Of a DNA stretch of 20,336 bases, positions 1,061-11,198 are shown piece after piece. The notes below the pieces were generated by a model. It saw only the letters and a list, made by a program, of their open reading frames with translations. It was not told the origin of the DNA and did not search any database. Position 1 is the stretch's first letter, and each line of letters opens with the position of its first letter. The stretch is from a virus, in IMG/VR virus record IMGVR_UViG_3300002460_000202, positions 1 to 20,336 of that record; one strand, written 5' to 3'. The translations under genes were made by a program, and so were the position numbers.

Positions 1061-1501
1061 ATGGTAGACAAAAAAATATCCGTTAATAATGAATTGTACG
1101 CTGCCCTTGCTTCTGCTGACGAGATCAAGGACGGCTCTGAGTGGTTCGGAAGTCAGTTTGAATCTTTGCAAGCTTCTCGGATGAAGTATCCTGCCGGTAA
1201 GACTTTTAGGATTCACCATCACATTTTGAACCCGAGGACGATTAAAAGGACTCAAGAATCTTTTATTGTGATAAGTGGCAGGCTTGCTGTCGATGTTTAT
1301 GCCAATCCAAAACCTTCTGGCGGGGGTCTTTTTAAAGAACCATTGTTTCTTGGTACTTTAGAAGCCGGGCCGGGTGAAGCTGTATTTATTTATCGCGGGG
1401 GTCACGGGATCAGGGTTTTAGAAGATTGCGTGGCTTATGAAGTGAAAGCTGGCCAATTTTCATATGTTTCAGAGGACAAGGAATTTTTGAACGATGTATG
1501 A
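1061..1501 (+). CDS. cupin-fold protein, probable sugar-nucleotide pathway enzyme
   Basis: This 146-aa single-domain cupin starts at ATG 1061 behind AAGGAA. Cupin motif 1 is seen around residues 52-73: a His cluster at 52-54, Glu66, and the E-x6-G spacing ESFIVISG. Motif 2 is seen at 105-115 (GEAVFIYRGGH, His115). The C-terminus GGHGIRVLED...YEVKAG matches, from memory, cupins that often sit beside DegT-type aminotransferases in surface-polysaccharide clusters. It lacks the RGxHAH-type signature I would expect of FdtA/QdtA/Tyl1a 3,4-ketoisomerases, so isomerase activity is possible but unproven. It overlaps the aminotransferase gene by 8 nt, which supports joint function. Confidence 0.75.
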   Translation: MVDKKISVNNELYAALASADEIKDGSEWFGSQFESLQASRMKYPAGKTFRIHHHILNPRTIKRTQESFIVISGRLAVDVYANPKPSGGGLFKEPLFLGTLEAGPGEAVFIYRGGHGIRVLEDCVAYEVKAGQFSYVSEDKEFLNDV

Positions 1502-2081
1502 ACGCAATACGGTGATAAGGCAGTTTGAAGAGACGATAGCAAAACACTGTGGTGCGCCTTATGGGATTGCGGTCGAGAGTTGTACCGCCGCCTTGTTCCT
1601 GTGTTGTCTGTATCTTAAAGTGAAAGAGGTGACGATCCCGAAGAAAACTTATTTCAGCGTCCCAATGAGTATTATCCATGCAGGTGGTTACGTCAAATAT
1701 GAGGATTTAGATTGGACTGGGGCGTACCAATTAAAGCCATACCCGATCATCGACAGTGCTATGAGATTCAAGAAGAATATGTGTATTCCAGGTACTTTTC
1801 ACTGCCTATCTTTTCACTACGCCAAGCATATTCCCATCGGCAGGGGTGGGATGATTCTTACGGATGACGAAGTGGCCGCCGCATGGTTCAGGGTAATGCG
1901 GAATGACGGTCGGAGAGAGATTCCAAAAGAGAAAGACAATGTAAAACTTTTCGGATGGAACTTTTACATGACTCCAGAACAGGCGGCGCGGGGATTGTCT
2001 TTGTACTACTGGAGAATTTTTAATCATAAAGACCCAGAAGATCTTCCAATGACTCACGGCGATATCAGCTATGTTTTCTAA
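1494..2081 (+). CDS. short DegT/DnrJ/EryC1/StrS-family aminotransferase
   Basis: The family uses PLP to aminate a keto group on nucleotide-linked sugars. Visible landmarks are the N-terminal FEETIAKHCGAPYGIAVESCTAAL cofactor region (residues 11-34), the aspartate expected to face the pyridine nitrogen in PIIDSAM (Asp87), and the Schiff-base lysine in SFHYAKHIPIGRGG (Lys111). The start is ATG 1494 with AAGGAA 9 nt upstream. The protein has only 195 residues, while typical members have about 370, so the C-terminal small domain is absent. The frame closes normally and runs into the next gene with an 11-nt overlap, with no obvious frameshift remnant. It may be a minimal form, may dimerise differently, or may be a decayed enzyme. 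Confidence 0.8.
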   Translation: MYERNTVIRQFEETIAKHCGAPYGIAVESCTAALFLCCLYLKVKEVTIPKKTYFSVPMSIIHAGGYVKYEDLDWTGAYQLKPYPIIDSAMRFKKNMCIPGTFHCLSFHYAKHIPIGRGGMILTDDEVAAAWFRVMRNDGRREIPKEKDNVKLFGWNFYMTPEQAARGLSLYYWRIFNHKDPEDLPMTHGDISYVF

Positions 2082-2712
2082 ATACGCTCGATATTACGAT
2101 CTATTTAACCAAAACAAACCCTACAAAAAAGAGATAGAGTTTGTATATCAGTGGGCTAAAAAACCCAGGACTATTTTTGATATTGGACCAGGGACTGGAA
2201 ATTATTGGAAGTTCTACCCAAAAAAAACAGTCCTTTTCGGGGTTGAGAAGTCAAAGTCTATGGCAGATAGGGCAAATGTTGTCGAAGAAATTGTCTGTGC
2301 TGACATAAGGAACTTTAGAATGGAATCTCGATTTGATTGTGCGACTGCTTTGTTTGATGTAATTAACTACATTTCAACAAATGACTGGTGGAAAAATATC
2401 CCTGTAAAAAAAGGTGGATATTTTATATTTGATATTTGGGATAAAGAAAAAGTAAATCAAGACGGATTCATTATAAAAGCAAAAGCAAATGGGACTTCCA
2501 TAAGAATCATTACACCGATCGGCTATGATGGAAAATCTGTGAGGTTGAATATCTCTGTTTTTGAGAATGACCTGCCACAGTTTGAAGAGATCCATCAAAT
2601 GTATGTTTACAGCCACGAAGATATCCTCCGCTTTTGCGGGAAAGAATTTGAAGTTGCCGAGGTGAAACCCACAGAGCGTTGGCAGGCTTGGTATAAATTG
2701 AGGCGTAAATGA
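2071..2712 (+). CDS. class I SAM methyltransferase, DesVI/TylM1-like
   Basis: This 213-aa Rossmann-fold methyltransferase has a clear motif I (IFDIGPGTGN, residues 35-44), an acidic residue ending strand 2 (GVEKS, Glu59) and a motif II/III region (CADIRNF, FDCATALFDVINY). The N-terminal pattern FSKYARYYDLFN and the FEEIHQMYVYSHEDI segment recall DesVI/TylM1-type N-methyltransferases, which methylate the 3-amino group of dTDP-amino-deoxyhexoses. It directly follows a cupin and a sugar aminotransferase, the same trio as in mycaminose/ravidosamine-type routes. Its frame overlaps the aminotransferase by 11 nt and the next gene by ATGA. The region is visibly A/T-richer than its neighbours, which suggests separate acquisition. 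Methyltransferase assignment is strong; the substrate is inferred. Confidence 0.82.
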   Translation: MFSKYARYYDLFNQNKPYKKEIEFVYQWAKKPRTIFDIGPGTGNYWKFYPKKTVLFGVEKSKSMADRANVVEEIVCADIRNFRMESRFDCATALFDVINYISTNDWWKNIPVKKGGYFIFDIWDKEKVNQDGFIIKAKANGTSIRIITPIGYDGKSVRLNISVFENDLPQFEEIHQMYVYSHEDILRFCGKEFEVAEVKPTERWQAWYKLRRK

Positions 2713-3683
2713 AGATCGCTTTGCTTCACCGATACACCCCAGACCGCATAAGCGAGACGAATGCCGCGTATCCGTATCTAGCCGCCAAAGGCATGGACAT
2801 TTTGACTTTCAAGAAGTTTGATAGATTGTCGAGACTGGGTAAGTTTTGGAAAAGCTTACTTTGGATTTTCTACGCGCCGTTCCTAGTTATTGGTAAAGGC
2901 TACGACGTTTTGTATCTCGATGATAGTTATCCTTTCTATCCAGTCCTCGTAAAACTTGCTTCTCCGCGATCTCGTGTCGTCATCCGGCTCGGCGATCTGC
3001 ATCTTATGTATTACTACTCTGGCTGGCTTTATAATTTCCTTCATTTCTTTGAGGAAATCGGCTGGACGGTTGCGGACAAGATTCTTGTTATCTCTCACGC
3101 TATGGCTGAGACTTTAAGAAAAGAAGGCTATCCATGTGAGGTTATTCGTGATCCGGTTGACCCAAAAGACTTCCCGTGGGTTGGCACCAAAGATGACGGA
3201 AATACCGTGATGTTTCATGGAGTTATGACTAAAAACAAGAACCTAGACATGCTCCTTGAAGCCGCCAAGCGAATGCCTAAAACGAATTTCTTGATAATCG
3301 GCGACGGCCCGGATCTTAATCGGTTGCAAAAGATAGCCCCAAGAAACGTATTTTTTGATGGGTGGACACCATTTAAAGATATTTGGCTTAAGATTGCTTC
3401 ATGCTCGGTGGGTGTGGCCTTGCGTAGTGATAACCCCGGCAACGAATATGTCGTCACTTCTCCATTTCTTCAATACGGAATTATGGGCAAGCCATGCCTT
3501 GTAACGCGCCGGAAGGTGTTCGGAGATTATGAATGGCAGTTTTCTGGCGTGGATGAGCTTGTCGAGAAGATAAAAATACTTATGACTAAGCCAGAAGAAG
3601 GCCAGAAGCTTAGAAAATTTGTCTTAGAAAACCACTTGGCAGAGAAAATTGCAGAGCAAATTTTTAGCATTATAAGTAATTGA
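2709..3683 (+). CDS. GT4-family glycosyltransferase (GT-B fold)
   Basis: The 324-aa protein starts in the ATGA overlap at 2709. The N-terminal half has the acceptor-domain opening MKIALLHRYTP and an ILVISHAMAETLRKEGYP segment (about residues 125-142) typical of GT4 enzymes. The C-terminal half has the donor-domain strand VMFHGVMTKNKNLDMLLEA (about 167-185), FLIIGDGPD (194-202), and a stretch resembling the EX7E donor-binding region followed by LQYGIMGKPCLVT (about 255-266). It would move a sugar from a nucleotide donor to a growing glycan on the cytoplasmic side. No signal peptide is evident. It is the last gene before the GGC-pentamer array, which begins 4 nt past its stop. Confidence 0.88.
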   Translation: MKIALLHRYTPDRISETNAAYPYLAAKGMDILTFKKFDRLSRLGKFWKSLLWIFYAPFLVIGKGYDVLYLDDSYPFYPVLVKLASPRSRVVIRLGDLHLMYYYSGWLYNFLHFFEEIGWTVADKILVISHAMAETLRKEGYPCEVIRDPVDPKDFPWVGTKDDGNTVMFHGVMTKNKNLDMLLEAAKRMPKTNFLIIGDGPDLNRLQKIAPRNVFFDGWTPFKDIWLKIASCSVGVALRSDNPGNEYVVTSPFLQYGIMGKPCLVTRRKVFGDYEWQFSGVDELVEKIKILMTKPEEGQKLRKFVLENHLAEKIAEQIFSIISN

Positions 3684-3687
3684 TTAG

Positions 3688-3780
3688 GGCGAGGCATGGC
3701 AAGGCGTGGCGAGGCATGGCAAGGCGCGGCACGGCGTGGCAAGGCATGGCAAGGCAAGGCGAGGCGCGGCGTGGCGAGGT
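3688..3780 (+). repeat. in-phase GGCRH pentamer array, 18 units
   Basis: Positions 3688-3777 are exactly 18 consecutive 5-bp units beginning GGC, with no insertion or deletion, followed by a partial GGT at 3778-3780. The two variable bases are, in order: GA, AT, AA, GT, GA, AT, AA, GC, AC, GT, AA, AT, AA, AA, GA, GC, GT, GA. The fourth base is always a purine and the fifth is never G, and all six allowed combinations occur. A 19-base block recurs at 3688-3706 and 3708-3726, which suggests growth partly by 20-bp duplication. On the + strand every unit starts GG, so the RNA or DNA could form two-tier G-quadruplexes with 3-nt loops. The composition excludes stop codons in all six frames. It is not a CRISPR array. 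Function unknown. Confidence 0.95.
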
Positions 3781-3809
3781 TAATTAAATGACAAATAGGA
3801 GATTTAAAA

Positions 3810-4355
3810 ATGAAAACAATAAAAAGAAAAGTGATATTGAATGGTCTTACGCCGATTTTGTTCGATCGCTACTCAGGAAACAACAAGGAGCAGTTGTCGA
3901 TAATGGAAAAAGCTTATTTCGAGAATCAAAGGATGGTTATACCGTCGACAAACATATTATCATTCTTATCTGCTCAGAACACCGAGAGTGCGCCTCAAAG
4001 AGTAGTAGGGCGTGGATGGAAAGCAGTGGCAAAATCAGCGCAAAGTTATGTTCAAATACACCCGTTTATGATTCCTTTTACAAGAAACGGCAAACAGCTA
4101 ACGCAGGAAAACGCTGATTTAAAAGTCCATTACGCCGTCGCAAAAATTATGAAAGGTAAGTTGGCTATTCCGAACCCAAAAGAGAGGCCGATGCTTGAGA
4201 CTCCGTGGGAGATTGCTTTTGATTTGGAACTTCTTGAAACGCCTGACCTTAACGAAAACCTGCTCAAGAAATTATTTGAGATTGGTGGCGTAGCCATTGG
4301 TCTAGGAACTTTTAGGGGGGTATTTGGAAAATTCAAAGTTACCGAATGGAAATAA
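3810..4355 (+). CDS. unrecognised 181-aa protein with C-terminal glycine-rich loop
   Basis: ATG 3810 has AGGAG (3797-3801) 8 nt upstream. The product starts with a strand-like basic segment (MKTIKRKVILNGLTPILFDR), has a VIPSTNILSFLSAQN segment at about residues 43-57, and ends with EIGGVAIGLGTFRGVFGKFK (about 157-176), a GxG-x-x-R-G-x-x-G-x-F loop followed by a short strand. I do not know a named family. From memory, phage proteins with a C-terminal GIG-R-x-x-YGxF element exist as unannotated single genes. The loop also superficially resembles the glycine-rich loop of RAMP/Cas5-Cas6-Cas7-fold RNA-binding proteins, which is untested. It lies between two glycosyltransferase genes but shows no glycan-enzyme feature, and it directly follows the pentamer array. 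Confidence 0.8.
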   Translation: MKTIKRKVILNGLTPILFDRYSGNNKEQLSIMEKAYFENQRMVIPSTNILSFLSAQNTESAPQRVVGRGWKAVAKSAQSYVQIHPFMIPFTRNGKQLTQENADLKVHYAVAKIMKGKLAIPNPKERPMLETPWEIAFDLELLETPDLNENLLKKLFEIGGVAIGLGTFRGVFGKFKVTEWK

Positions 4356-5178
4356 TCCTTACGCGACCGTCGTAATTTGTACAATGGGCGAACCAAAAAG
4401 AGTTCTTGAGTGTCTTAATGCCCAGACTTTTAGAGACTTTGAGGTTATTGTGGCCTCTGAGAAGGGGATCGTGAATGCACTGAATTTAGCTTTAGGTCGC
4501 GCTAGAGGTGAGATAACAATTCGCATAGACGACGACGTATATTTGCCACCAAGATGGCTAGAAGAGCTTATAAAGCCCTTTTCTGACCCTTGTGTGGCTG
4601 GTGCTACAGGGCCGACATTTGTACCTAGAGAGCTAAGACAGCACAGAGATAGCATAAGGATATGGGAAAATCCAAATAGATTTTTAAAATGGATGACAAA
4701 AACTAATTTCAGACCCCCATATAGCAATGAACTTGCACCGGCGGCGATTTATGATTGTGGGATGGTTTCTTACGATTCAAATTATGAAGAAAGATTTTAC
4801 GAAATAAAAACGATGCCATGTTTTCAGTGTGACCACCTTGAGGGAACGAACTGGGCTATGAGGACTAAGCTCATTCGAGAAGTCGGAGGTTTCAATCCAG
4901 CCTTTGATGGGGTGTGTGAGTGGTTCGACACAGACGTGGAGTTTAAAATAAAGAAACTTGGCTATGTCTTGCGGTATTGTCCAAAGGCTTACCTCTGGCA
5001 CTTGCTTGAATTTAGTCCGAATTACAATGAGCGTTTTGATGGTGTTGGTCGTATAAAGAATTGGATACGATTTCATCGTAGGCACTCAAAGTTTCATTGG
5101 AAGATGGTGGTTTATTTGATGGTGTGGGGAGGGTATTTTATAACAAGGAGATTTAAAAAATTATTTTTTCAATACTGA
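4324..5178 (+). CDS. GT2-family glycosyltransferase (GT-A fold)
   Basis: The only start that keeps the first Rossmann strand (ATVVICTMGEPKRVLECL) is TTG 4324, which has AGGGGGG at 4313-4319. The first in-frame ATG, at 4384, would cut that strand. The 284-aa product shows the nucleotide-binding N-terminus, the metal-binding acidic cluster RIDDDVYLPP (Asp69-71), an acceptor-region EGTNWAMRTKLIREVGGFNP and an aspartate-containing catalytic segment EWFDTDVEFKIKKLGY. The C-terminus is basic and hydrophobic (MVVYLMVWGGYFITRRFKK) and may touch the membrane. It overlaps the upstream gene by 32 nt. It transfers a sugar from a nucleotide donor; linkage cannot be predicted. Confidence 0.87.
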   Translation: MENSKLPNGNNPYATVVICTMGEPKRVLECLNAQTFRDFEVIVASEKGIVNALNLALGRARGEITIRIDDDVYLPPRWLEELIKPFSDPCVAGATGPTFVPRELRQHRDSIRIWENPNRFLKWMTKTNFRPPYSNELAPAAIYDCGMVSYDSNYEERFYEIKTMPCFQCDHLEGTNWAMRTKLIREVGGFNPAFDGVCEWFDTDVEFKIKKLGYVLRYCPKAYLWHLLEFSPNYNERFDGVGRIKNWIRFHRRHSKFHWKMVVYLMVWGGYFITRRFKKLFFQY

Positions 5179-5339
5179 AAAACAAAGAAATCGAAGCAAA
5201 AGCTAGGGAGCTTGGCGGTTATTACACTGCTGAATTTGCCACAGGATATATGATGACACACCATCCAATATTATTTATTTTGGATATTTTTATTCCTGTG
5301 GTGGTTATCTTAGGAATCTTTTTTATATTTTGCAGATGA
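5160..5339 (+). CDS. small single-pass membrane protein with non-standard start
   Basis: An open frame follows TAA 5154-5156 and runs to TGA 5337-5339, where it overlaps the next gene's ATG by ATGA. It encodes a charged helix (KNKEIEAKARELGG) and then one strong transmembrane segment (PILFILDIFIPVVVILGIFF). No ATG, GTG or TTG lies upstream of ATG 5250/5253. An AAGGAG at 5145-5150 sits 9 nt before ATT 5160, and CTG 5175 is another possibility. If translation starts at 5250 or 5253, the product is just the 28-29-aa membrane segment. The coupling overlap and protein-like composition argue that the frame is real; the start is unresolved. The gene lies between two GT2 genes and may anchor or assist them. 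Confidence 0.55.
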   Translation: MIFSILKNKEIEAKARELGGYYTAEFATGYMMTHHPILFILDIFIPVVVILGIFFIFCR

Positions 5340-6163
5340 AAGTATCAGTCATCATCCCCGCCATGAAAGGTCGCGAGGCCATGCTTGCGAAGCTTCTTTC
5401 TACCATCCCAGACAAATACGAAAAGATCGTGGTGGATGATGAGAACCTGCTTTTAGTGGCCAAAAGAAACAAGGGCGCACGACAGGAGAAAGGAGAGTAT
5501 TTACTTTTTATTGATGATGACAATTATTTGGAGGAGGAGCCAAAACCTATAGAAAACGCCTTAGAAATTATAGAACAATCAGGCATTGGAGTTGTCGGCT
5601 TCATAGCCTGCTATTCCGATAAGCCGTGGATAATTGCTGACGGTGGGTCAATGCGAAACTATCTGACAGGGTTTACATCTGGTGTGAATACAAACGCCTC
5701 ATGGCCGAAGTTGGATAAAACGCCTTACGAGGTGGACGAGGTCGCCAATGCTTTTATGATTCGTCGAGAGCTTTTTGAAGAGACAGGCGGCTTTGACGAA
5801 GTGAATTTTCCTATGGATATGAGTGAATCGGATATATGTCTTAGAATTAAGAAAATGGGCTATCGTATAGTTATGAACCCTCGGGCAATTTGTTATCACA
5901 AATCACAGACGTATTCTTGTTTTCCTAACTTCCGAAAGGAGATGTATGCGTACTTTCATGGAAACGGTCGCATTTGTTTTGCGCGAAAGCATTATCATGG
6001 TTTATGTTATTGGGGCCACATTAGCATTTTCCTTCCTCTATTTCTTTGTTTTTATACAGCATCGCTTCTTTGGAGAAAAAACTTCAAAGTAATTATTCCA
6101 TTTTTGGAGGGTGTGTTCGATGGACTACGAGGTCGTAGAACGAATAAATATCAACCGCGCTAA
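5336..6163 (+). CDS. GT2-family glycosyltransferase (GT-A fold)
   Basis: I chose ATG 5336 (ATGA overlap) over the TTG 6 nt upstream. The 275-aa protein opens with MKVSVIIPAMKGREAML and carries a DDD metal cluster in YLLFIDDDNYLEEE (Asp60-62), an acceptor segment VANAFMIRRELFEETGGFDE, and a catalytic acidic region MSESDICLRIKKMGY. A hydrophobic C-terminal stretch, HISIFLPLFLCFYTASLLW (about residues 225-243), suggests membrane association, as in other GT2 enzymes that act on lipid-linked acceptors. The gene runs 44 nt into the following gene. Sugar donor and linkage cannot be read from sequence. Confidence 0.87.
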   Translation: MKVSVIIPAMKGREAMLAKLLSTIPDKYEKIVVDDENLLLVAKRNKGARQEKGEYLLFIDDDNYLEEEPKPIENALEIIEQSGIGVVGFIACYSDKPWIIADGGSMRNYLTGFTSGVNTNASWPKLDKTPYEVDEVANAFMIRRELFEETGGFDEVNFPMDMSESDICLRIKKMGYRIVMNPRAICYHKSQTYSCFPNFRKEMYAYFHGNGRICFARKHYHGLCYWGHISIFLPLFLCFYTASLLWRKNFKVIIPFLEGVFDGLRGRRTNKYQPR

Positions 6164-6914
6164 CTGTATTAAGGTTGGCGCATTTTTGTATGACAAAGAA
6201 GTAGACGGGCTTTATCACGAAAGCCATTGGTGGTTCCCCGTCCAAATCGGAATCACGCATGGACTTACCCGGTGCCAAGTCACCCCAATGTTTTTGAAAT
6301 TGCCATTTTTAATGAAAGGGTGGGTTCAGGAATACATTCTTCTCCGTGAGATCGAACTCCTGAAACTCGCTCTCACAGGAAAAATCCTTATGCACGGCTC
6401 ATGCTATGACAACACTCTTGTCGTGGGTTTTTCCAATTCAGGAAAGACCTATCAGACCTACAAAGCAGTCTCGGAAGGAGCAAAGCTTATCTCCGAGGAA
6501 TACACGATCATCTACGATGGGAAAGCCCACCCCTACGAGCGCGTCATGAGGACGTGCTTTTCGGCTCGCACGATGAAAGATTGCGGAATCGAGACTTCAT
6601 TAAGAGAAAAACTTTGGCTCATGGCGGCGACACTTCGAGCGACTCTTTTTCCGTTCATGTATGAGGCCGTGATTTGGAAGAACATCCCTGTAAGCGGCGA
6701 GTCATCCGAAATAAAGAAAATCGTCTACGGCTCCACCGGACGAGAGGTAAAAGACTGGAAGGAGTTCGCTATTCTTTGTGAAAACGAGTTTCCTTTTATG
6801 TCGAGTGAGTTTTTGCAGGCGTATGCTCTTGTATCAGGGCTTGATTTGCTTGGAATTCAAGAGACGCAAAGGAATTTAATCAAGAAGTTTGTTGAAAGTG
6901 TATACCCGCTATAA
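6120..6914 (+). CDS. HprK-like P-loop kinase/ATPase domain protein
   Basis: ATG 6120 is preceded by GGAGG (6106-6110) at 9-nt spacing; a GTG at 6111 is the alternative. The 264-aa protein has an N-terminal domain of about 85 residues and then a P-loop unit: LMHGSCYDNTLVVGFSNSGKTYQT with Walker A GFSNSGKT (residues 103-110), followed by GAKLISEEYTIIYDG (120-134). The order His-Gly-Ser strand, Walker A, then an 'ISEE' acidic segment is typical of HPr-kinase-like domains found in polysaccharide and peptide-modification clusters. Such proteins bind ATP and may phosphorylate a small molecule or protein. The true substrate is unknown. The N-terminal segment could be a specificity domain. It overlaps the upstream glycosyltransferase by 44 nt. 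Confidence 0.75.
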   Translation: MDYEVVERININRANCIKVGAFLYDKEVDGLYHESHWWFPVQIGITHGLTRCQVTPMFLKLPFLMKGWVQEYILLREIELLKLALTGKILMHGSCYDNTLVVGFSNSGKTYQTYKAVSEGAKLISEEYTIIYDGKAHPYERVMRTCFSARTMKDCGIETSLREKLWLMAATLRATLFPFMYEAVIWKNIPVSGESSEIKKIVYGSTGREVKDWKEFAILCENEFPFMSSEFLQAYALVSGLDLLGIQETQRNLIKKFVESVYPL

Positions 6915-6921
6915 GGATTTT

Positions 6922-7071
6922 ATGGAAGAAAAATACGGAAGCATGGAACTTCCAAAAAAGAAGTGCGGACATGAGGTTGGTTATCGGTGTTGTTGCCATC
7001 CAAACAAACGAGATTTTATTGAAAAACCAATAGATGCTGTCGAAGAAATTCATAGAAAAAGACGGCGTTAA
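6922..7071 (+). CDS. cysteine/histidine-rich microprotein, 49 aa
   Basis: ATG 6922 has AAGGA (6913-6917) close upstream. TTG 6889 or GTG 6895 could extend the frame by 9-11 residues. The product contains a compact CGHEVGYRCCCH cluster (four Cys and two His within 12 residues), which could hold a zinc ion, and a basic tail (HRKRRR). No known family is recognised. The stop abuts the next gene's ATG with no gap (TAA 7069-7071, ATG 7072). It may be a small regulatory or adaptor protein for the neighbouring enzymes, which is inference from position only. Confidence 0.6.
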   Translation: MEEKYGSMELPKKKCGHEVGYRCCCHPNKRDFIEKPIDAVEEIHRKRRR

Positions 7072-7767
7072 ATGCCGTCTATCCTCCGAACTGGAAGTAA
7101 AGGATTCATCGCAAGCGGTCTTGTAGGCGAAGGAATCGACATCAAAGACGGTGTTGATATCTGCACCTACAAAGCCAAGAAAAAATATGACGTGGTAATT
7201 CACACGGCGGCCAAAACAAGTGTCGTGGAGTCAGAAAAAAATCCTGCATCTTATTTTGAAACGAACGTTAATGGCACTATGAATATGGTGAAACAACACC
7301 CGGAGGCACATTTTATATATTTATCTACCGCCGCCATTTATGGAGAAGGATTAGACCACACGGTAAATTCAATTCCACAATCGTCCTCGACATACGCTTA
7401 CACCAAATATTTAGGAGAAGGTATTATAAAACGATTTGCGAGGTCGTGGGTGATTCTTCGCTTGACTAATGTTATCGGGGAGGGGGAGCGCGGCGAGCCG
7501 AACGTCTATCAGGTTTTTGAAAAGGCCGATGTTCTTCCGATTTATGGCGACGGCCTTCAAACGCGCGACTTCATTCATGTCGATAAAGTCCGTGAAGTTA
7601 TAATGAAAAGTTTAGAGAAGCGCGGCGTATTCAACGTCGGATCTGGGGTATCAAAAACTATTATTGAAGTTGCGAAAGAATTTAACAAGCCGATGAAATT
7701 TTTACCGGCGAGAGACGGGGAAATTAGAAACTTTGGGGTTAAGGATGCTGTCAATTTTAATTCCTAA
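7072..7767 (+). CDS. NAD-dependent epimerase/dehydratase (extended SDR), compact
   Basis: The 231-aa Rossmann protein has an N-terminal TGSKGFIAS (residues 7-15; TGxxGxxA, last Gly replaced by Ala), the VVIHTAAKTSV strand (41-51), the catalytic serine/threonine region YLSTAAIYGE (83-92), and the YxxxK pair Tyr108/Lys112 in STYAYTKYLGE. A late IYGDGLQTRDFIHVDKV matches the typical sugar-nucleotide SDR segment. It is shorter than the roughly 310 aa usual for this family because the N-terminal Rossmann half is trimmed. The start at ATG 7072 directly follows the previous stop, with a weak ribosome site, so translation is probably coupled. It likely acts on a nucleotide sugar; specificity is unknown. 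Confidence 0.85.
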   Translation: MPSILRTGSKGFIASGLVGEGIDIKDGVDICTYKAKKKYDVVIHTAAKTSVVESEKNPASYFETNVNGTMNMVKQHPEAHFIYLSTAAIYGEGLDHTVNSIPQSSSTYAYTKYLGEGIIKRFARSWVILRLTNVIGEGERGEPNVYQVFEKADVLPIYGDGLQTRDFIHVDKVREVIMKSLEKRGVFNVGSGVSKTIIEVAKEFNKPMKFLPARDGEIRNFGVKDAVNFNS

Positions 7768-8335
7768 TCATCAAGAGAAAGAGATCCACGAAGTAGTCGA
7801 TGAAATAGAGAAATTGAATATAGCTCATGAGATTATTATTTCAAAAGATAGCGAAAGTAAAGGCAAGGGGTGGGCGGTCCGAGAAGCTTTAACCCACGCC
7901 AAAGGTGATCAAATAGCCATACTCGACGGCGATGCCGAGATCCCGGCACGTATGCTTTTAAGACTTTTGCCGTTCCTTCAAGATTTTGACGTGGTGGTTG
8001 GCAGTAAGAGAATCACCCGCGCTCCGCTTCGGCGTAAAATAATGACGCATGTTACCAGAATATGGTTTAGATTTCTATTCGGGGTTTTCGTGGACACACA
8101 GACGGGAATAAAACTTTTCAGGCGGTCGGCACTGAAAGCGTTGGATTATAATTGGGAAAGTAACGGTTTCGTGTTTGATTTGGAAATAATATCACGGTTG
8201 CAAAAAAAAGGTTTCAAGATGGTTGAAGTGCCGATTGAGTGCGAAATAAAAAGGCAGTTGGCATTCAAGACAATATTTAAAATAGCGGGAGAGAGTATTT
8301 GGTTATGGTTTCGATTATTATTCCGACAAAAATAA
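7745..8335 (+). CDS. GT2 glycosyltransferase, DPM1/GtrB-like
   Basis: ATG 7745 fits the conserved opening MLSILIPNHQEKE; TTG 7733 would add four residues. The 196-aa protein has the GKGWAVREALTHAKGDQIA helix-strand unit, the metal motif DGD (residues 61-63) and DTQTGIKLFRRSALKAL, all characteristic of dolichyl/polyprenyl-phosphate sugar transferases such as DPM1 and GtrB. These charge a polyprenyl-phosphate carrier with one sugar in the cytoplasm. It ends shortly after the catalytic domain and lacks the C-terminal transmembrane helices of GtrB, so a separate membrane partner may be needed. A polyprenyl-phosphate sugar would be a natural donor for the GT-C protein encoded at 11630-13000. Confidence 0.86.
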   Translation: MLSILIPNHQEKEIHEVVDEIEKLNIAHEIIISKDSESKGKGWAVREALTHAKGDQIAILDGDAEIPARMLLRLLPFLQDFDVVVGSKRITRAPLRRKIMTHVTRIWFRFLFGVFVDTQTGIKLFRRSALKALDYNWESNGFVFDLEIISRLQKKGFKMVEVPIECEIKRQLAFKTIFKIAGESIWLWFRLLFRQK

Positions 8336-8976
8336 TAGACACCTACGCCAAGCGGTGTATTGAATCTTGCGAGAAACTTCCGGAGGATAAGGAAATCCTC
8401 GTTATCACAGACGAGATTTGTCCAGGTTTCCCGGCAGGAAAAAGAAACTACGCAATGCAAATAGCAAAAGGAGATATCTATGCCTTCATCGACTCAGATG
8501 CGTACCCTTCTAAAGACTGGCTCAAAAAAGCGCTATACTGGCTCCAATGCTACCCGGCGGTATGCGGCCCAGGCATTCTCCCGCCGTGTGCGCCTTTTTC
8601 TGAAAGAGTCGCCGATCAAGTGCACAAATGGGTGTTTTGCCCTTATCGCGTCACCTCAAGACATCCGCAAATTGTTCCCTGGCACCCGACGTTCAATCTT
8701 CTCGTCAGAAAAGATGTGGCGAATGTTTTTGACAGTTATCTTACGGGCGAGGATGATCGCTTCTGTGAAAAAATAAAAGAAGGGATTTTTTACCATCCTT
8801 CGATCTTGGTTTACCACAACCGCCGGGGAGCTTTCAGGCCGCTTTGGAAGCAGTTCGGAACCTACGCGCGGCACAAAGGGGCGTTTCAGGGGATGGCGTT
8901 CGTGGCATGGGTCACGACGCTTTGGGTGTATGCGGTTAATTGGGTGAAGGGGTTTGTGAGGAGGAGACCCAATTGA
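8305..8976 (+). CDS. GT2-family glycosyltransferase, short
   Basis: ATG 8305 gives MVSIIIPTKIID, the usual first strand; TTG 8299 would add two residues. The 223-aa product carries AGKRNYAMQIAKGDIYAFID with the metal-binding DSD at Asp63/Asp65, a PWHPTFNLLVRKDVANVFD acceptor segment and an LTGEDDRFCEKIKEG acidic catalytic region. The C-terminus has a hydrophobic stretch (FVAWVTTLWVYAVNWVKGF) that could associate with membrane. It overlaps the upstream glycosyltransferase by 31 nt and the next microprotein by TTGA. Specific activity is unknown. Confidence 0.85.
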   Translation: MVSIIIPTKIIDTYAKRCIESCEKLPEDKEILVITDEICPGFPAGKRNYAMQIAKGDIYAFIDSDAYPSKDWLKKALYWLQCYPAVCGPGILPPCAPFSERVADQVHKWVFCPYRVTSRHPQIVPWHPTFNLLVRKDVANVFDSYLTGEDDRFCEKIKEGIFYHPSILVYHNRRGAFRPLWKQFGTYARHKGAFQGMAFVAWVTTLWVYAVNWVKGFVRRRPN

Positions 8977-9077
8977 GAGGCGTTGGTGGAAAGGTTGAAA
9001 AAACTCTCTACCATTGTGAATGGTGCAATAAGGAAATTTACGAATGGAGATGGGAAAAATGCCGAAAGCGCTCATAA
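8973..9077 (+). CDS. 34-aa cysteine-containing microprotein
   Basis: A TTG start at 8973 overlaps the preceding stop (TTGA), with a strong GAGGAGGAG site about 6 nt upstream. The 34-residue product has a zinc-knuckle-like pair in LYHCEWCNKEIYEW (CxxC), a third Cys near the C-terminus, and many basic and Trp residues. It runs 19 nt into the next gene, whose start lies inside it. The ribosome site and Cys pattern support it; its very short length limits confidence. It may mainly be a coupling leader for the epimerase gene. Confidence 0.45.
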   Translation: MRGVGGKVEKTLYHCEWCNKEIYEWRWEKCRKRS

Positions 9078-10057
9078 CCGGCTCTTGGGGTCTCGTCGGG
9101 ACAGAAGCCACAAAATATTATTTGAATGAAGCTTGGGAGGTGGTTGGAATTGATAATGATATGAGAAAGCATATGTTTGGCCCAGACGCTTCGGTGGTTA
9201 AAAACAGAATTGACCACAGAAATTATAGACATCATGGAATTGATATTTCAAAAATTGAGCCAATTATTGAAGCTGAAAAACCAGATTTGATTATCCATTG
9301 TGCCGCAGCGCCGTCCCACGATTGGTCAGCGACAAATCCGCTTCTGGACTTCGGGATTAACGCTTATTCGACGCTCATGCTGTTGGAAATGACACGAAAG
9401 CACACGCCGGAGGCGGTTTTTGTTTACCTTTCTACGAATAAGGTTTATGGGGACTGGCCGAATAGGGCTGGATTCCATGAGTACGGAACTCGATATGAAC
9501 CCATCCATCTTGATGATATGAACCCCGGATTTGATGAAAAAGTGTCTATAGATAATTCAACTCATTCTCCATTTGGTGTTTCCAAGCTCGCGGGCGACCT
9601 CTACACCCAAGAATACGCCCGCTATTTCGGCCTGAAAACGGGAGTCTTCCGTTGTGGCTGTATCACCGGCGCGGCTCATGCGGGAGCAGAGCTTCACGGA
9701 TTTCTTGCCTACATGGCAAAATGTAAGAAACAAAATATCCCTTACAAAGTTTATGGCTATAAAGGCAAGCAAGTGCGCGATCAGATTCACGCCCACGATC
9801 TCGTTAGAGCGATTGATTGCTTTGTGCGGAACCCGAAGCCGGGAGAAGTTTATAATATGGGCGGCGGCCGCCATTCTAACGTGTCAGTGTTGGAGGCGCT
9901 AAATTGGATGAAAATAAAAGATTGGGAATATGTCGACGAGCCACGTAAGGGCGATCATATTTGGTATATTTCGGACGTTTCAAAATTCAAGGGACATTAT
10001 CCAGAGTGGGACTACAAATACAACTTGTGGGCTATCATGGAGGATTTAATGAGATGA
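9059..10057 (+). CDS. NAD-dependent sugar epimerase, CDP-paratose 2-epimerase-like
   Basis: The protein has 332 aa from ATG 9059 (MPKALITG); ATG 9044 and 9050 are alternatives. Features are ALITGSWGLVGTEA (NAD loop, residues 4-17), DLIIHCAAAPSHDW, STNKVYGDWPN (125-135), IDNSTHSPFGVSKLAGD (164-180), FRCGCITG (197-204), AELHGFLAYMAKC, GYKGKQVRDQIHAHDLV and EVYNMGGG. This motif series matches the RfbE/Tyv (CDP-paratose 2-epimerase) branch of extended SDRs, which interconverts CDP-paratose and CDP-tyvelose. The usual YxxxK tyrosine is Phe172 here (FGVSK, Lys176); I recall related proteins with the same change, so it may define a subfamily. No other CDP-dideoxysugar gene is in the window, so the true substrate may differ. 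Confidence 0.85.
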   Translation: MPKALITGSWGLVGTEATKYYLNEAWEVVGIDNDMRKHMFGPDASVVKNRIDHRNYRHHGIDISKIEPIIEAEKPDLIIHCAAAPSHDWSATNPLLDFGINAYSTLMLLEMTRKHTPEAVFVYLSTNKVYGDWPNRAGFHEYGTRYEPIHLDDMNPGFDEKVSIDNSTHSPFGVSKLAGDLYTQEYARYFGLKTGVFRCGCITGAAHAGAELHGFLAYMAKCKKQNIPYKVYGYKGKQVRDQIHAHDLVRAIDCFVRNPKPGEVYNMGGGRHSNVSVLEALNWMKIKDWEYVDEPRKGDHIWYISDVSKFKGHYPEWDYKYNLWAIMEDLMR

Positions 10058-10149
10058 GCGATAATCAAAAATGGTTTTTAATTGGTGGAATTGTTAGTGC
10101 TGTCTCTTGTATGTTGATTGTTCTCGGTTTCATTTGGTTTCATTTATGA
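10054..10149 (+). CDS. 31-aa single-pass membrane microprotein
   Basis: ATG 10054 overlaps the epimerase stop (ATGA) and has GGAGG at 10039-10043. Its own stop overlaps the next start in the same way (ATGA at 10146-10149). The product is a short polar head (MSDNQKW) followed by a single transmembrane helix (FLIGGIVSAVSCMLIVLGFI). Double translational coupling and a clean membrane segment make it credible despite its size. I recognise no family. It may be an anchor or accessory for one of the adjacent enzymes; a holin-like role is unlikely from one helix this short. Confidence 0.65.
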   Translation: MSDNQKWFLIGGIVSAVSCMLIVLGFIWFHL

Positions 10150-11198
10150 GATACCTTTTCCCTCTTAATCCCTACAACCAACAACGTCAATTTCAGAAGC
10201 CAGTCTGGGTCTACCCAGCTCATTTGGCGATGTATGCGACTTATTTGAGGAATGAGGGGCATGAGGTTGTTTGGGATAGCGAAGTATCAAAAGACATGGG
10301 ATTTGATTTGTTGTTAGAACGCAACGATAAGAGAATAGCAAAAATAATCCAAGATGATTTTCAAATAGACGTTCCTTTTGAGGAGCTACCATTCCCAGAC
10401 CGCATATTTACTGATGCTAAGAACAAACGCTGGCAGTCATACGGAAATTATAAATACCATCCGGCTACCCACATGATGGCTTCAAACCTTTGTTGGTGGG
10501 GAAAATGTACGTTTTGTATTGATACCGCCAAACTTCAGGCAGGGGAGAAGCGCGGCATCCGATCGGTCGATCACGTCATGGAAGAAATAGATGATCTCAT
10601 AATAAATGGATATCGCGAGGTCTTTGATGATTCAGGGACTTTCCCTATTGGTGATTGGCTGAACGAATTTTGCCGAAAGATGATTAAGAGCGGTCGCAAT
10701 AAACAAATTGTTTGGGGTTGCAATATGAAACCAATCGCCGAGAAAGTGGTGCCTTTTAAACTGATGAAAGAAGCTGGGTGTCGGTTCATGTTAGTCGGAG
10801 TTGAATCAGCGAATCAAAAGACTATTGATATCATAAAGAAAGGTCAGGAGTCTCACAAGGTTATCGAGAACATGAAAGCCATGAATGACGCTGGCCTAGA
10901 GGTCCACCTGACTTCGATGTTTGGATATTCTTGGGAAATGTATGAGGACAATATGCGGACAGTAAATCTTGTCCATTATCTTTTGAGAAAAGGATATGTC
11001 AAAACCGCCCAAGCTTCTGTCTACATGTCGCCTCGCACGGCTCCTGATCCAAACTCGCCAGCGCAGAAATACATCCAAAAAGTTTACGATATCTATAAAG
11101 ACCCCCGGTATTGGCTCAGGAAGATTTTAGATTTAAGACGTTGGGAGGATGTGACGTATTTATTAAAAAGGATCGGGCATGTCAAACACGCTAAATAA
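10146..11198 (+). CDS. radical SAM enzyme, B12-type architecture likely incomplete
   Basis: I chose ATG 10146 (ATGA coupling); the upstream TTG 10107 is inside the microprotein gene. The 350-aa protein opens with MRYLFPLNPYNQ and a GHEVVWDSE segment that recalls the start of a cobalamin-binding-type Rossmann domain, though the domain is too short to be complete. The radical-SAM cluster is CWWGKCTFC (Cys116, Cys121, Cys124), a CX4CX2C variant of CX3CX2C. Downstream it has the typical barrel elements EVFDDSGTFPIG, WGCNMKP, GCRFMLVGVESANQKTID and TSMFGYSWE. It would use SAM and a 4Fe-4S cluster for radical chemistry, perhaps on a sugar or lipid in this cluster. The substrate cannot be inferred. 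Confidence 0.85.
   Translation: MRYLFPLNPYNQQRQFQKPVWVYPAHLAMYATYLRNEGHEVVWDSEVSKDMGFDLLLERNDKRIAKIIQDDFQIDVPFEELPFPDRIFTDAKNKRWQSYGNYKYHPATHMMASNLCWWGKCTFCIDTAKLQAGEKRGIRSVDHVMEEIDDLIINGYREVFDDSGTFPIGDWLNEFCRKMIKSGRNKQIVWGCNMKPIAEKVVPFKLMKEAGCRFMLVGVESANQKTIDIIKKGQESHKVIENMKAMNDAGLEVHLTSMFGYSWEMYEDNMRTVNLVHYLLRKGYVKTAQASVYMSPRTAPDPNSPAQKYIQKVYDIYKDPRYWLRKILDLRRWEDVTYLLKRIGHVKHAK

Follow-up and report, generated by a model that had tools for sequence, protein, structure and literature searches.

The window analysed here, positions 1 to 20,336 of IMG/VR record IMGVR_UViG_3300002460_000202, is 20.3 kb of DNA from an uncultivated virus; its head genes are podovirus-like, and the record may be a fragment. 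Between two glycosyltransferase genes it carries an array of GGC-headed pentanucleotides and a 181-amino-acid (aa) open reading frame (ORF) assigned below to vipr (Table 1). The array is intergenic, 4 nt past the stop of the group-1 glycosyltransferase ORF and 32 nt ahead of vipr. A recount agreed exactly with an earlier note on this DNA, made from the letters, in which 18 in-phase GGC units over 90 bp had been reported along with the counts of their variable pairs (NN; AA 5, GA 4, AT 3, GT 3, GC 2, AC 1). All 18 GGC cores are perfect, and the pairs run GA AT AA GT GA AT AA GC AC GT AA AT AA AA GA GC GT GA. The GGT that closed the span given in that note is the opening of a 19th GGY unit, GGTTA. 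In the DNA, the putative guide thus counts 18 GGC units, or 19 in the GGY register. The near-unchanged return of units 1-4 as units 5-8, also pointed out earlier, was recovered by tandem-repeat search as a 20-bp period.

The array has a G+C content of 73%, against 44% for the whole record, and its pattern gave 0 matches in 100 dinucleotide shuffles (chance expectation, zero). No second array of this kind was found elsewhere in the 20.3-kb record; the GT2 glycosyltransferase ORF overlaps the 3' end of vipr, so there is none downstream. Motif scans near the array returned no promoter or terminator motif, an Rfam scan gave no match, and plain RNA folding was unremarkable (z -1.5). Apart from the pentamer array, tandem-repeat search of the window yielded a single unrelated repeat in two copies and no CRISPR repeat-spacer array, and Pfam recognised no further cas genes among the main window ORFs scanned, in a record that may be a fragment.

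Table 1. Features of the putative VIPR locus in the window, and a candidate accessory gene in related loci
Feature	Position	Strand	Basis
Putative vrRNA (guide) repeat tract, 18 GGC-NN units	3688..3777	+	Exact match; like arrays adjoin vipr in 54/66 independently chosen loci
19th unit in GGY register (GGT-TA), or start of 3' tail	3778..3782	+	Sequence; family GGY consensus permits GGT (also PMC13142463)
Short A+T-rich stretch, putative vrRNA 3' tail; includes vipr ribosome-binding site AGGAG (3797-3801)	3783..3809	+	Sequence
vipr gene, 181-aa RAMP (Cas7/Csm3-like) protein with C-terminal G-rich loop, GLGTFRGVFGKF	3810..4355	+	phrog_4652; SUSP1 Vipr profile match; predicted fold
Flanking group-1 glycosyltransferase ORF (context, outside the system)	2709..3683	+	Pfam Glyco_trans_1_4 and others
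Flanking GT2 glycosyltransferase ORF (context); as listed, overlaps vipr 3' end	4324..5178	+	Pfam Glycos_transf_2; ORF list
Metallophosphoesterase-like gene	L228:2278-3090; also L235, L233, L236, L249, L251, L295 and 5 more by clustering		

An exact scan of IMG/VR for (GGCRH)x8, where RH denotes a purine followed by a base other than G, returned 94 contigs; the reversed pattern was about 10 times rarer (9 contigs in all, 3 of them shared with the forward scan). Mixed-unit arrays were present in 79 of the 94 contigs, the window included (122 clusters altogether). Arrays were masked prior to ORF calling, because they are stop-free and false ORFs run through them; on these crude ORF calls, the nearest ORF lay on the same strand as the array in 98/118 cases upstream and 88/112 downstream, typically at gaps of tens of bases. 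The earlier impression that similar tracts occur in other phages was thus borne out in 79 mixed-array contigs, and this regex-type scan, of the kind suggested there, found GGC and phase intact, units shuffled and gene context fixed. A scan of bacterial genomes gave, among the matches listed, nearly all single-unit or low-diversity repeats and at least 6 mixed arrays.

Clustering of ORFs from the array contigs produced one dominant family of ~200-aa proteins (49 contigs, array-adjacent in 43), to which the window ORF next to the array belongs. A six-frame profile search added 19 contigs, bringing the family to at least 68 of the 79 array contigs, usually directly beside the array. In the family alignment, whose 42 rows are 15-59% identical to the window protein, W133, G164 and G173 are invariant and the C terminus holds a conserved glycine-rich motif, the G-rich loop; the window frame is intact and carries the family-invariant residues. 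All 42 aligned members, the window as first row, match phrog_4652 (function unannotated in PHROG). Pfam and NCBIfam gave no meaningful match for the family, PADLOC gave none, and exact peptide patterns of the window protein found no relatives in IMG/VR.

For a reverse test, loci were fetched by protein alone, with no selection for arrays (80 loci, 66 distinct), and a GGYNN run of at least 6 units was scored in the 1 kb before or the 1.2 kb after the gene. A same-strand array stood beside the gene in 54/66 loci, with 0/66 on the opposite strand, 0/66 farther away and 1 in the reversed control; runs of at least 6 units were upstream of vipr in 38/66 loci and downstream in 40/66. The positive control, a Felixounavirus SUSP1-type vipr locus, showed GGY-NN arrays of 10, 11 and 12 units on both sides of the gene. 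Arrays in the protein-selected loci reach up to 39 units, and some precede genes other than vipr. Arrays on the same contig have in common the stretch that follows the repeats, which varies from contig to contig (L277, L271, L272 and L275). At L266:2703-2768 and 2849-2914, this tail stretch looks hairpin-capable.

With an E-value of 9.7e-34, a profile built from the 42 array-linked proteins matched PDB entry 36pp_D, "SUSP1 Vipr protein". AlphaFold2 modelled the window protein with a pLDDT of 96.9, and this model resembled the type III backbone proteins Csm3/Cas7 (Foldseek E 6e-6; VIA Z 12.6, rmsd 4.2, 162 residues); the protein is predicted with high confidence to be a minimal RAMP fold, an RRM core with a G-rich loop. 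Vipr is the protein of Viral Interference Programmable Repeat (VIPR), described in a 2026 preprint (PMC13142463; bioRxiv 2026.04.26.720920), the single report on which VIPR as a system rests. There, Vipr is a minimal RAMP and the vrRNAs consist of alternating GGY and NN; the NN pairs set which double-stranded DNA is recognised, under a one-base-skip rule, and competing phages are silenced. RNA expression, complex formation, the skip rule and silencing are reported for other members, the studied vrRNAs having 9-16 repeats and an invariable 3' tail, with accessory (vap) genes typical but not universal and other single-vrRNA systems existing. VIPR is presented as RNA-guided DNA recognition, a relative of CRISPR proposed to predate it, in a scheme that spans types I-VII and places SUSP1/Felixounavirus-like systems in type II (PMC13142463).

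On the strength of the array-protein linkage, the SUSP1 Vipr homology and the Csm3/Cas7 RAMP fold, we assign the window array to a VIPR system as its guide-RNA (vrRNA) gene, and take the gene that follows for its Vipr, with a probability of about 93%. By analogy with the studied members, the + strand would be transcribed through the array, and Vipr subunits would align along the RNA, one per five-nucleotide repeat, gripping the constant GGY and exposing the NN pairs. These pairs would read double-stranded DNA by base-pairing at three-base intervals, passing over one base each time. Once bound, the complex would silence the gene so matched, which would most likely belong to a rival phage, satellite or prophage in the same host. 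The earlier idea of coded-looking bases on a fixed frame, with a protein reading them 5 nt at a time, was right in spirit, given the link to a RAMP family in 54/66 loci.

The window shares with the published systems a Vipr-family RAMP, an adjoining GGY/NN repeat RNA gene, a constant GGY with variable NN, and a phage setting. It differs in having 18-19 repeats rather than 9-16, a single array, no recognised vap, NN pairs that are all RH, and a position within a glycosyltransferase/nucleotide-sugar cluster. With class 1 CRISPR-Cas (Cas7/Csm3) it has in common the RAMP fold, the RRM core and the G-rich loop, but its RNA is a 5-nt repeat and not a spacer. The protein is homologous to that of SUSP1/Felixounavirus-like type II systems and the array logic is the same; in a maximum-likelihood tree, however, the window, L079 and L056 fell within a clade of 17 rows (100/100), separate from the Felixounavirus/SUSP1-like group, so that the window Vipr did not group with type II. 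The Felixounavirus relative also mixes GGT and GGC, whereas the window's relatives are mostly GGC. Searches by tblastn of 50,697 isolate phage records gave no match for the window protein or for clade member L063, and 134 matches for a SUSP1-like relative. What appears to be new, judged from sequence comparison, is thus a Vipr clade separate from the SUSP1-like one and undetected among those 50,697 records, which widens Vipr diversity. New as well is the combination of a single guide, no recognised accessory gene, a place inside a glycan-gene cluster and all-RH pairs. The carbohydrate cassette in which the locus is embedded is long (1061-11195) and contains a DegT aminotransferase, several glycosyltransferases, two epimerases, a methyltransferase and a radical-SAM protein.

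The constraint seen in the earlier note, a purine in fourth place and never a G in fifth, was over-read there: it holds for the window array and not for the family. Among protein-selected relatives (141 arrays, 1781 units), RH units make up 57.6%, and not one relative's array of at least 9 units (107 in all) is entirely RH; the RH restriction is therefore a peculiarity of the window guide. What is invariant across the family is GGY (1694 C, 87 T). Under unit independence an 18-unit all-RH array would have a probability of ~5e-5, a figure that is no test, the array having been picked for this feature. A coding target on the sense strand could produce a bias of this kind, with a purine first and no G second. 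Among six codon-phase/strand readings, the window NN units were best read as sense codon positions 1-2, ~4 natural-log units above the next; this reading, which is suggestive, post hoc and modest, fits a skip at the wobble base. Over all arrays, codon-phase coherence was above an all-shuffle null (1/500) but not above a within-contig null, and was dropped as evidence because the latter reached it in 73/500.

Under the one-base-skip rule, the target of the window array would be the 53-bp 5'-GANATNAANGTNGANATNAANGCNACNGTNAANATNAANAANGANGCNGTNGA-3'; with the skipped base in the wobble position, its codons translate to [DE][IM][KN]V[DE][IM][KN]ATV[KN][IM][KN][KN][DE]AV[DE]. Exact seeds of 11, 10, 9 and 9 units found no extendable match in IMG/VR, and no target was found within the window itself, in a 4.7-Mb two-strand set of collected loci, or, with up to 3 mismatches allowed, among 37 related virus records. 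Comparing skip rules 0-3 inside the collected loci, a set too small to decide among them, gave no true target for any array. In-frame DINVDINAT-like stretches at six places (L311:1804, L312:649, L315:4125, L313:7036, L314 and L316) match guide units 1-9 under the skip rule; none extends beyond 22-24 of 36 bases, and they were taken as chance.

By analogy with the studied systems, we expect on balance that the window copy actively silences a rival element. Rather doubtful is a more specific version, in which this is a stand-alone variant from a clade absent from the isolate phages searched, with one 18-19-repeat guide and Vipr only and no accessory protein, placed in a glycan cluster and directed in frame at a single coding sequence, which it would silence (NN as codon positions 1-2).

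A variant compatible with the VIPR reading is that the vrRNA and vipr are real and inactive, a degenerate orphan remnant. The lone guide, the want of a recognised vap in the window and the empty target searches are what such a remnant would show, but the Vipr frame is intact with its family-invariant residues, single-vrRNA systems are reported elsewhere (PMC13142463), the fold is confident and all 18 GGC cores are perfect; we consider decay improbable. The trp RNA-binding attenuation protein (TRAP) offers a different model, an RNA of triplets with short spacers read by repeated protein subunits. Vipr might likewise bind GGCNN repeats in its own mRNA leader and control its own translation, with no external target, and the place of the array in the vipr leader near the ribosome-binding site agrees with this, as do the relatives' arrays that precede other genes. 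Yet arrays also follow vipr (the 40 downstream loci set against 38 upstream), the NN pairs vary freely, which a pure binding site does not need, and in the relatives that have been studied it is NN that determines the DNA target (PMC13142463), so that autoregulation is very unlikely. TRAP itself has another protein fold and spacers with no coding content, whereas the window neighbour is a RAMP by its fold matches.

Highly improbable is growth of a neutral pentanucleotide microsatellite by slippage: the 20-bp period and the single-unit repeats that make up most of the bacterial matches listed would suit it, but arrays in viruses mix their units, lie between genes on the same strand as their neighbours and go with one protein family, the reversed pattern is ~10 times rarer, and the protein-first test contradicts it. 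Equally implausible are the roles put forward in the earlier note, which found no support: control by a G-quadruplex (G2N3) formed in DNA or RNA, a hotspot of recombination, or a signal for replication. A GG every 5 nt could in principle give two-tier quadruplexes, but ordinary RNA folding was unremarkable, and neither the constant C/T that follows GG nor the RAMP-protein link is explained. Since the arrays are so closely tied, on the same strand, to a RAMP-fold protein whose family binds guide RNA, such roles are not needed.

Under the preferred reading, a vrRNA gene with its Vipr, the array was flagged from raw letters alone and its protein link was recovered without using PMC13142463, so a simple repeat-pattern scan finds VIPR loci; one pass yielded 79 mixed-array viral contigs. 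The window locus, with its 181-aa protein, one guide and no known helper, is a small candidate system for asking how little suffices for VIPR.

Several mixed GGCNN arrays had no Vipr homologue in the locus DNA examined (L013, L014, L020, L022, L023, L026, L032, L047, L054, L058 and L086); L022 alone holds 211 units over 15 runs. Another partner protein is possible at such loci, some of which are short. No accessory (vap) gene was recognised among the window's neighbours, in a record that is possibly incomplete and has some ORFs with no annotation. Elsewhere in the window's clade, a ~270-aa gene with metallophosphoesterase motifs (DxH, GDxxD, SHVHY) lies directly beside vipr and arrays in 12/66 loci. 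Two members tested had no Pfam or PHROG match, and a model of the protein (pLDDT 71) matched phosphoesterase-fold proteins, including Mre11, PolD DP1 and LpxH; it is a candidate vap, a nuclease or phosphoesterase. A second family of ~162 aa, found at L068:7041-7529 (- strand) and 11 further loci, is possibly another accessory gene; the one member tested matched phrog_15946, again without an annotated function, and the family is array-adjacent in 12/12 loci.
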